Shown: positions 1 through 27,136 of the stretch, piece after piece
Position numbering within the stretch: the first letter of the stretch is position 1
Layout of the letters: every line of letters starts with the position of its first letter
Source of the DNA: Candidatus Saccharimonadota bacterium
GTDB taxonomy: Bacteria; Patescibacteriota; Saccharimonadia; Saccharimonadales; Saccharimonadaceae
Assembly (NCBI GenBank): GCA_030531645.1
Contig: JAUNNB010000008.1
Coordinates: 1 to 45,543, forward strand
Direction: 5' to 3'
DNA: 45,543 nt
The notes under the pieces: model-generated
What the model saw: only the letters and a program-made list of their open reading frames with translations
The model's database searches: none
What the model was told of the DNA's origin: nothing
Translations under genes and position numbers: made by a program

Positions 1-68
1 GCCAGCTGGAATCGAACCAGCATTGTAGACTTAGAGGGTCTATGTCCTATCCGTTGAACGATGGCGCC
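1..68 (-). tRNA. tRNA-Arg (anticodon TCT), 3' end cut by window edge
   Basis: Read on the minus strand from 68. The acceptor strand GGCGCCA pairs with the visible TGGC at the 3' end; three acceptor bases and the discriminator lie outside the window. The D-arm is GTTC/GGAC, the anticodon stem TAGAC/GTCTA, and the T-arm GCTGG/CCAGC with loop TTCGATT. The seven-base anticodon loop is CCTCTAA, giving anticodon TCT (reads AGA/AGG). Position 33 is C where nearly all tRNAs have U. The rest of the cloverleaf is canonical, so this looks like a working tRNA with an odd base rather than a pseudogene. Confidence 0.9.
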
Positions 69-24965: not shown

Positions 24966-24993
24966 AAAAAATCCCCCGTGAGGAGGATTTTTT
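24966..24993 (-). terminator. Terminator of the surface-protein gene
   Basis: An A/T-flanked hairpin AAAAAATCC/GGATTTTTT with an inner CC/GG pair and GTGA loop, followed by T bases on the minus strand. It lies 20 bp after the stop codon. Confidence 0.8.
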
Positions 24994-25013: not shown

Positions 25014-26900
25014 TTAGCGTTCGCTTTTCTTGAAAAGCTTAGCAACTGCTGCGCCGAGAGCGACGATAGCGCCAGCGACGACTGCGAAGATGTTGCTTGA
25101 GCTTGCAGAACCAGCAGCTTCAGAGATAGCACCGGTAGAAGGAGCCTTCACAGAAGCGAGGGTTGCACCTGCACCTGCAGCTGGTTTAACAGTTGCAGCT
25201 GGTTTAGCGTCTTTACCTACGAGAATATAGACGTAGTCAAGATCATCAACTTCCATGCCGAGAACGTTGTCAAGACGAGCATAGCGTTCACCATCGATGA
25301 GAGTGGTGATGAGTTCTGGATAAGTCATGTCGCCAATGTAGACAAGGATATCAGAAGCGCTATAATTGGTCTTGTTAGCTTTATTGTAAGCGGTGAGCAT
25401 AGCAAGAATTTGTGACTTGATATCACCGAACTTCTGACCCTGCTTTGCAAAGATGACATATTGACCAGTAGCGTGCTCATAAGCGGCAGTATTAAGGGTG
25501 ACGCCGTCTTCCATCAAGAAATCAGCAGGATCATAAGCGTTGAAGACCTTAGTCTTGGTACCGATACCAACACGGACGCGATTGCGGACTGAAAACTCAG
25601 CGAAGAGAGTTTCATTGCGCTTAATGACTGCGTCAAGATTTGCTGGAGTGCGATAGTTAGGAGTGGTGAACCAACCTTCGAAGTAGTTATATTTATAACC
25701 ATGTTCATCTTTGAGGGTTGCAGCACCGGCTACGTTATTTTCTGCATCAGCATTTTCGAGACCGATGAGGTAAGAGATGTCTGCTGGAGTGAGATCATTC
25801 ATAGTAATGCCAGCATTTTGCAAGTATTCTGCGAGATTTGCGTGGCTTGCGAAAGCGGCTTGGATATACTCACGAAGCTTAGTGTTATCATTTCTTGCAG
25901 CAGCGGTTGCATCTGCTGGGTCGTCAACATCGTTGCTGTCGGTCCAGATATTGACAGTGCGCTGAGCACCAACCTTGGTGTCAATTTCATAAGTGCGGAC
26001 ACCGGCGGTATTCTTCTTTAGAAGTGAGAATTCAAAGGTGACGCCGTTGATACCTTGACCTTGAACATCTTTAGGGATAGAGATGCGATTGGTTAAATCG
26101 ACTGGAGAGTTGGTTGTGATTTTACCACTCTGGTTGACATCTGAACGGTCGTTGCTGTAAACTACTTCGAGAGAGAATTTATTACCATTGACACGTGACA
26201 TGTCTGCTGGGAGTTGGAGTTCTTCAAGAACAGCGATTTTACCACTGCCAGAAACCATAGCGGTAGTGTCGATAGTAAGTACCGCACCATCGTAGACATA
26301 GATGGTACCGTTGTTTGCTAGAGCACCACTAATGGTGTTAGAAGCAGCACGGAGTTCGATGTAGCCATTGTTGGTGACATTGCTAGTAGCAGCGGTGTTG
26401 AAGGCTGCGGTAGCATAGATCTTAGCACCTGCATTGTTGACAATTTTACCGCCAACAGTAGGAGCTGCGTTGAGATAGATAGTACCATTGTTGGTAATAT
26501 CGGTCTCTACTGGGATTGTTACAGCGCCAGTAACGGTAAGGGTGCCGTTGTTGACGATGTGGAGCTTGACGCCGTCAGCAGCTTGGAGGCTCATTGCGTC
26601 GAGACTTGCGTTGCCGTTAATAGTGAGGGTGAGATCAGTAACGGTGAGAACACCGCCAGAGATAGAACCATCACGAGTAACAGTGATAGTACCACCGGTT
26701 GCAACGAGCTTGCCTTCGTAGTTACGATTGGCGGCTGTTGGGTCGGTAGTTGCAAGAAGGATGGATTTTGTAGCGATATCACTGGTAAAGGTATCGATGA
26801 TGTCGGTGTGATCCATCGCACTTGCGTTGAAAACAGACGCGGTTGATGCTGCAGCAACAGCGAGACCAGCGCCTGCGATTAGTTTAATATTTTTTGACAT
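25014..26900 (-). CDS. Large secreted, cell-wall-anchored surface protein
   Basis: A 628-residue exported protein. A Sec signal peptide (about 1-28, cut near ASA-MD) precedes a beta-rich region (about 60-230) of short NNGTIY/NNGYIEL-like repeats that suggest a beta-solenoid. A middle domain follows, then a Listeria-Bacteroides (Flg_new)-type segment near YFEGWFTTPNY...ETLFAEFS. An Ala/Pro/Lys linker leads to APSTG at 586-590, a hydrophobic helix (about 603-622) and a KKSER tail, which is the layout of a sortase sorting signal with a non-LPXTG motif. It is probably an adhesin or coat protein facing the host cell. The SD AAAGGAG is good. Its promoter has a ten-base homopolymer in the spacer. 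Confidence 0.88.
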   Translation of the reverse strand: MSKNIKLIAGAGLAVAAASTASVFNASAMDHTDIIDTFTSDIATKSILLATTDPTAANRNYEGKLVATGGTITVTRDGSISGGVLTVTDLTLTINGNASLDAMSLQAADGVKLHIVNNGTLTVTGAVTIPVETDITNNGTIYLNAAPTVGGKIVNNAGAKIYATAAFNTAATSNVTNNGYIELRAASNTISGALANNGTIYVYDGAVLTIDTTAMVSGSGKIAVLEELQLPADMSRVNGNKFSLEVVYSNDRSDVNQSGKITTNSPVDLTNRISIPKDVQGQGINGVTFEFSLLKKNTAGVRTYEIDTKVGAQRTVNIWTDSNDVDDPADATAAARNDNTKLREYIQAAFASHANLAEYLQNAGITMNDLTPADISYLIGLENADAENNVAGAATLKDEHGYKYNYFEGWFTTPNYRTPANLDAVIKRNETLFAEFSVRNRVRVGIGTKTKVFNAYDPADFLMEDGVTLNTAAYEHATGQYVIFAKQGQKFGDIKSQILAMLTAYNKANKTNYSASDILVYIGDMTYPELITTLIDGERYARLDNVLGMEVDDLDYVYILVGKDAKPAATVKPAAGAGATLASVKAPSTGAISEAAGSASSSNIFAVVAGAIVALGAAVAKLFKKSER

Positions 26901-26931
26901 AGAATATTCTCCTTTAACTCTATATGCTCCG

Positions 26932-26962
26932 ATTATAACACCATTTTTTTTTTATAAGTCAA
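26932..26962 (-). promoter_or_regulatory. Surface-protein promoter with A10 tract in the spacer
   Basis: -35 TTGACT at 26962-26957 and extended -10 TGT-TATAAT at 26937-26932. The spacer is 19 bp and includes ten consecutive A bases on the coding strand (26944-26953). Loss of two bases would give the optimal 17 bp. Confidence 0.8.
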
Positions 26963-27111
26963 GGACTTTTTTGCCTTTTTTACAGATATGGTTTATGCTT
27001 ATTTTGCAAAATGCTTATGCTTATTATGTTATAATATTTTAAACATTAAAAGAATGGTATCTATGGAAATATGTTGTAATATATATTTTTTGTTTTTTGA
27101 AAGAAAAAAAT
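26963..27111. other. AT-rich intergenic region with repeated ATGCTTAT and a palindrome
   Basis: About 150 bp with no ORF. ATGCTTAT occurs at 26995, 27011 and 27017, around the perfect palindrome ATTTTGCAAAAT at 27001-27012. A TATAAT at 27028 has no gene after it. It could be an operator or an upstream activating region for the surface-protein gene; no known regulator is recognised. Confidence 0.5.
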
Positions 27112-27136
27112 GCCTCCATATATAATATTTGGAGGC
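27104..27136 (-). terminator. tilS terminator
   Basis: On the minus strand GCCTCCA/TGGAGGC (27136-27112) with an 11-base AT loop, followed by a T-run. Confidence 0.85.

Follow-up and report, generated by a model that had tools for sequence, protein, structure and literature searches.

Ten consecutive A residues in the promoter spacer of a predicted surface-protein gene of Candidatus Saccharimonadota: a probable slippage-driven switch

The promoter preceding the gene of a predicted surface protein, P0001, in DNA of Candidatus Saccharimonadota bacterium (the window, i.e. the whole analyzed stretch of 45,543 nucleotides) carries ten consecutive A residues (A10), all of them placed between the −35 and −10 hexamers. 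Judged from its sequence, this promoter is probably a switch driven by slippage within the tract, and its action on the surface protein would be phase-variable or graded. The presence of tract-containing promoters in related bacteria, together with the differences in tract length found among these relatives, favors slipped-strand phase variation of the promoter spacer. The genome concerned (0.77 Mb, 99% completeness) has peptidoglycan genes, sortases and type IV pilin-like genes, and its size and content would agree with Saccharibacteria.

Structure of the A10 promoter

The promoter is located on the minus strand (26962 to 26932) and has the structure TTGACT-TATAAAAAAAAAATGGTGT-TATAAT, followed by CGGAGCATATAGAGTTAAAGGAGAATATTCT and an ATG start codon at position 26900 (Table 1). 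The distance between the −10 hexamer and the start codon of the gene for the 628-aa predicted surface protein is 31 nt, and the tract is flanked by TTGACTTAT and TGGTGTTATAATCGGAGC. The length of the spacer follows that of the tract: A10 corresponds to 19 bp, A9 to 18 bp and A8 to 17 bp. An earlier note on this DNA had described the same architecture (TTGACT, an extended TATAAT box and a 19-bp spacer containing ten A residues), which proved to be exact on the minus strand. It had also pointed out that the loss of one or two bases would leave a spacer of 18 or 17 bp, and this holds as well, the latter being the spacing of 58 of the 66 strict promoters of the genome (defined below). The TGn motif ahead of the −10 hexamer is shared by 45 of these 66 promoters.

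A promoter scan of the intergenic region revealed no further good promoter on the minus strand. Since a likely terminator is present between tilS and the A10 promoter, the latter should drive the surface-protein gene alone. Two A6 tracts are located 21-30 bp upstream of A10, in approximate helical phase. AAGCAT-like direct repeats were also observed upstream of the promoter (window positions 27003-27020); as judged by a count of CATAAGC, such repeats are not enriched in the window.

Table 1. Features of the A10 promoter region and of the adjacent genes (window coordinates)
Feature	Position	Strand	Basis
tilS, gene upstream on the same strand	28022-27159	-	PF01171
Likely intrinsic terminator of tilS, GCCTCCA...TGGAGGC + T7	27104..27136	-	by eye, absent from the scan list
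−35 hexamer TTGACT	26957..26962	-	sequence; also recovered by the genome-wide promoter pattern search
Promoter spacer TATAAAAAAAAAATGGTGT, 19 bp	26938..26956	-	sequence and genome-wide spacer count
A10 homopolymer, proposed slippage tract	26944..26953	-	sequence
Extended −10 element TGTTATAAT	26932..26940	-	sequence; TG at 26940-26939
Expected transcription start region	26924..26926	-	inferred, ~7 nt past the −10 hexamer
Ribosome-binding site AAAGGAG	26909..26915	-	sequence
P0001, 628-aa predicted surface protein	25014..26900	-	ORF, sequence
Predicted right-handed beta-helix, residues 64-229	26214..26711	-	single-sequence AlphaFold
APSTG motif of the sortase-type C-terminal anchor	25131..25145	-	sequence and alignment
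Terminator-like stem and T run, 3′ of the surface-protein gene	24966..24987	-	scan

The predicted surface protein

The N-terminus of P0001 is hydrophobic and resembles a signal peptide, both by hydropathy (1.77, against a cut-off of 1.6) and by eye. At the opposite end of the protein, the APSTG motif is followed by a membrane helix and a basic tail (KLFKKSER). The canonical LPXTG motif is absent; nevertheless, this end of P0001 aligns with protein ends containing APDTG, APGTG, APNTG or APETG in congeneric genomes. The predicted anchor is therefore non-canonical, while the remaining hallmarks of the sortase-anchored LPXTG class are recognizable in its sequence. Two sortases are encoded elsewhere in the genome (PF04203 matches above the cut-off), and their action on APxTG motifs is putative.

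The single-sequence AlphaFold model of P0001 has a mean pLDDT of 43.5; the values for residues ~64-229 are mostly ~55-90, and the model is poor elsewhere. Comparison of the predicted beta-helix by VIA-align placed adhesin domains such as those of Awp3b, tapirin, Ag43 and TibA nearest among the beta-helices (Z ~10-15), and the neighbors detected include enzymes as well as adhesins (Z ~14-15 for the latter). Foldseek alone gave no significant match to the model, and we therefore claim the beta-helix as a fold class only. The sortase-type surface protein proposed in the earlier note is consistent with the signal-peptide-like start, the predicted beta-helix, the APSTG motif with its helix and basic tail, and the two sortases. 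On the basis of sequence and model, P0001 looks like an anchored surface adhesin, with its exposure on the cell surface predicted.

No family in Pfam or NCBIfam matches P0001. Homologues of its body were found neither in 60 relatives nor in the full set of 174 congeneric genomes, in which only weak matches to the C-terminal anchor were detected; no paralogue of this anchor was found in the genome itself. Searches of the public genome collection revealed no homologue of P0001 and, in a TilS scan, no match. A second strain was found in none of the genome sets searched for P0001. The neighborhood of tilS is not conserved across the congeneric genomes.

Rarity of the tract and of its spacer length

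Genome-wide counts were obtained by pattern searches, which in the case of homopolymers covered A/T runs. The A10 tract turned out to be the sole A/T run of at least 9 bases, on either strand, in the 771,005-base genome, and apart from it the longest A/T run of the window has 7 bases. The statement that no other promoter carries such a tract, made originally from a reading of the window, can thus be extended to the whole genome as far as A/T runs are concerned. Markov models for which the window and 30 other genomic loci (L001-L030) served as training data predicted 31-51 such runs (orders 1-4), 18 (order 5) or 2 (order 6). The observation of a single run against 31-51 expected indicates that long A/T runs are avoided in this genome. 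A strong avoidance of homopolymers was also apparent in the window and the 30 loci themselves, where A/T runs beyond 7-8 bases are nearly absent.

The spacer is similarly exceptional. A spacer of 17 bp was counted in 58 of the 66 strict TTGACN-(15..19)-TATAAT sites present in the genome, and one of 19 bp in the A10 promoter only. The chance that a randomly placed A10 tract would fall wholly within the spacer of a strict promoter is ~0.0008; if the AT-richness of intergenic DNA is roughly allowed for by a factor of ten, it becomes ~0.008.

Many promoters throughout the genome share the long consensus TTGACTTTTTAGC.AA..TGTGCTATAAT, in which conserved words occur in the spacer in addition to the hexamers. 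As read from the sequences, this is a consensus longer than that of an ordinary sigma-70 promoter.

Homopolymer-containing promoters in related genomes

A survey of A/T runs of at least 10 bases in 60 congeneric genomes was carried out blind to the position of the runs, and the sites were read afterwards. It revealed 17 distinct runs, A10 included. Nine of them (again with A10) are located in a TTGAC-TAWAAT spacer just 5′ of a gene for an anchored surface protein, and eight lie outside promoter spacers. The eight spacer runs other than A10 belong to promoters that are homologous to one another, with the sequence TTGACA-T11/T12-ATTGCG-TAAAAT or one close to it. The products encoded downstream begin with MKKSQ(I/V)LAALALAFALG or a similar sequence, and those that are complete end in an APxTG-type anchor. 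When the pattern TTGAC...T9+...TAWAAT was searched for in 174 congeneric genomes, exactly these eight promoters were returned, from six genomes representing six congeneric species, and the reversed control gave 0 matches.

The flanks of the tract are conserved in all eight promoters, the tract itself is either T11 or T12, and the spacers have 17 or 18 bp. Two genomes (G401 and G417) each contain one T11 and one T12 promoter, i.e. paralogues differing by one T. A difference of one T was also found between orthologues encoding proteins of 76% identity (T11 in G415, T12 in G014). Such differences among paralogues and orthologues indicate that tract length changes in promoters of this design (17 versus 18 bp), although one-base differences could be errors, since each length was read from one assembly of unspecified sequencing type, and some of the genomes are incomplete or slightly contaminated.

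The T11/T12 promoters resemble the A10 promoter in having a homopolymer in a spacer at or near 17 bp, and their products share with P0001 a C-terminal anchor composed of APxTG, a helix and a basic tail. They differ in carrying T residues on the coding strand, in the −10 hexamer (TAAAAT) and in the body of the encoded protein (the MKKSQ... family), which is unrelated to that of P0001. These three differences make an independent origin of the T11/T12 promoters probable. Four of the tract-promoter APxTG genes (L095, L096, L098 and L101) were found near a RimK-like gene (MKIAILSNGNANYS...), genes for large secreted proteins and, in most cases, dnaJ; from its sequence, this neighborhood is a conserved surface-protein locus within a subgroup of the genus.

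Extension of the TTGAC...T9+...TAWAAT search to 394 genomes of the family yielded 16 matches, with 0 in the reversed control. Eight of the matches precede genes for APxTG proteins. Another six were found in a sister genus (g34), where the genes downstream encode type IV pilins with FTIIEVVLVLAIAG-like N-termini. A T15 run in G069 lies before a gene whose small product has a hydrophobic N-terminus, and the product associated with the match in G084 has no evident surface character. Matches with A8 spacers were also present in the family (before uppP, PilM, VirB2-like and ksgA-like genes); these were not used as evidence, because runs of 8 bases are short.

The six pilin genes of g34 with T-run spacers (four in G177 and two in G126) have spacers of 20, 24, 19, 18, 15 and 15 bp. 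A seventh pilin gene, in G152 of the same genus, is preceded by A11 in a 17-bp spacer, which gives lengths of 15, 15, 17, 18, 19, 20 and 24 bp for the complete set of tract-bearing pilin promoters. The loci are separate pilin genes (L103, L107, L108 and L109 in G177; L102 and L106 in G126; L049/L086 in G152), and pilins with tract promoters of their own are candidates for an independently switchable set. One copy (copy b, L107 on G177:C43) looks interrupted, since an in-frame stop precedes the pilin domain. Upstream of the g34 pilin genes, the −10 hexamer ends ~6-7 nt before the start codon, and a distance of ~6 nt was also noted in the window (21512-21117, minus strand); with such short distances, these pilin mRNAs are probably leaderless. 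The T9-T14/A11 promoters of g34 are similar to the A10 promoter in bearing a homopolymer in the spacer, whose length varies between paralogues (15-24 bp), before a gene for a surface structure; they are distinguished from it by products that are pilins and by the position of the −10 hexamer 6-7 nt from the start codon.

Pooled comparison of tract-containing and ordinary promoters revealed a spacer other than 17 bp in 13 of 18 versus 7 of 65 (Fisher p ~8e-7, homologues being counted individually). A product with a hydrophobic N-terminus was predicted for 17 of 18 tract promoters and for 8 of 28 ordinary ones (p ~1e-5, with many of the products homologous); when independent families were counted, the proportion was 4/5 versus 8/28 (p ~0.05).

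Proposed mechanism and alternative explanations

In the mechanism that we propose, RNA polymerase of this bacterium strongly prefers a 17-bp spacer, and replication slippage, by adding or removing A residues within A10, would change the spacer from 19 to 18 or 17 bp and back. With its spacer two bases off the 17-bp optimum, the form that was sequenced (A10, 19 bp) is probably the low state, A9 and A8 would be higher states, and A8 probably the high one. Sister cells would then carry different amounts of one anchored surface protein, P0001. On this view, slippage would be frequent enough in living populations to be useful, and the length of the spacer would set the level of expression. The extended −10 element could partly release transcription from its dependence on spacing; given its presence, a basal level may persist, and control may be graded rather than ON/OFF. 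As regards the phase-variable switch suggested in the earlier note, the proposal gained partial support from the architecture of the promoter, the uniqueness of the tract, the predicted surface target and, above all, the recurrence in relatives, among which the tract differs in length between paralogues and orthologues. Host binding and immunity, with which the note had connected a switchable coat protein, may be the selective forces.

A tracts bend and overtwist DNA, and the A10 tract might for this reason be a fixed structural element which bends or stiffens the promoter, partly correcting the phase of the 19-bp spacer, with constitutive expression and no switching. The centers of the A6, A6 and A10 tracts (11.5, 20.5 and 41.5, i.e. 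9 and 21 bp apart) are roughly in helical phase, and an extended −10 element supports promoter activity at a long spacer. We nevertheless regard this explanation as rather unlikely: no such tract is present in the remaining 65 strict promoters, whose spacers are mostly of 17 bp, and in relatives neither the tract (T9-T15) nor the spacer (15-24 bp) has a fixed length.

A neutral accident, in which a run within AT-rich intergenic DNA lengthened by chance and was tolerated since the extended −10 element suffices, would agree with the location of 8 of the 17 long runs of the 60-genome sample outside promoter spacers. It is hard to reconcile with the strong avoidance in this genome of runs above 7-8 bases, with the position of the sole exception inside a promoter spacer (chance ~0.001-0.01) and with the concentration of the relatives' runs in spacers of surface-protein genes, and we judge it improbable.

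Homopolymer lengths are a common error in long-read assemblies, and the number of A residues could be an assembly or sequencing artefact hiding a fixed spacer of 17 or 18 bp. This is very unlikely, as a run of nearly 10 would still be the longest A/T run of the genome, and assemblies made independently agree in having tracts within spacers ahead of the same limited set of genes. Promoters of the MerR family typically have a 19-bp spacer, and a spacer-bound activator would twist their DNA into shape, but the spacer studied here consists mostly of A10 and lacks dyad symmetry (2 of its 19 positions are self-complementary), and the missing palindrome led us to reject this last explanation as hardly credible.

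Slipped-strand variation of the promoter spacer thus remains our preferred explanation for A10. Arguments against it are that the tracts of the relatives precede gene families other than that of P0001 and consist mostly of T rather than A residues on the coding strand, and that the bias toward surface proteins is weaker when families are counted. The sequences of these tract promoters make it likely that the spacer device arose separately before other surface proteins of the family (T11/T12 before APxTG proteins, T9-T14/A11 before pilins). A wider proposal is that spacer homopolymers constitute a general, repeatedly evolved device for phase variation of surface proteins and type IV pilins in this lineage of very small and probably epibiotic bacteria, with as many as four individually switchable pilin genes in a single genome, through which the cells of a population would differ in host-bacteria recognition; to this we give about the same weight as to its opposite.

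Comparison with known systems

The poly-A tract of the vlp promoters of Mycoplasma hyorhinis is located between the −35 and −10 boxes. Random insertions and deletions in this promoter-region tract switch transcription of the surface-protein genes ON and OFF (PMC10502178). With its homopolymeric A tract and surface-protein gene, the vlp system is the closest known match to the A10 promoter; it belongs to a different phylum, comprises a family of lipoprotein genes and has been demonstrated to switch, whereas here a single beta-helix protein is concerned and switching is inferred.

Of the precedents to which the earlier note had referred, porA and hif were both found in PMC3899988. The porA gene of Neisseria meningitidis has a poly-G tract in the spacer between the −10 and −35 boxes, and the level of its transcript follows the length of the tract, with changes of a single base having an effect (PMC3899988). 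It resembles the A10 promoter in the placement of a homopolymer inside the spacer, and differs from it in the base (G, not A), in the product (a porin of a diderm bacterium) and in that its length effect has been measured, whereas that of A10 is proposed. In the case of the surface fimbriae genes hifA/hifB of Haemophilus influenzae, a change in the number of TA repeats alters the −35/−10 spacing (PMC3899988), and the system differs from the A10 promoter in consisting of dinucleotide repeats in a divergent promoter pair.

Searches of openly available full texts yielded no description of promoter phase variation from Saccharibacteria, Patescibacteria or the candidate phyla radiation, and the few co-mentions of these subjects were passing or unrelated. 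The one finding akin to it in spirit was a hypervariable repeat gene described in a Gracilibacterium (PMC6851277). Pili of Saccharibacteria/Patescibacteria mediate binding to the host (PMC12206443). If the proposed mechanism is true, epibionts with minimal genomes would have a simple way to diversify their surface, which could help to account for differing host range or binding in epibiont cultures. Its interest also lies in the apparent repetition of the design, within a single bacterial family, before three or four surface systems that are unrelated to one another.

The A10 promoter, as far as can be read from the DNA, has every structural feature of the spacer-repeat phase-variable promoters of the porA/vlp type: (i) a tract within the spacer, (ii) a tract length far above that of background runs, (iii) a 17-bp optimum within reach and (iv) a predicted surface product. 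Phase variation by spacer homopolymers is a known kind of system that has apparently not been described from the Patescibacteria lineage before.
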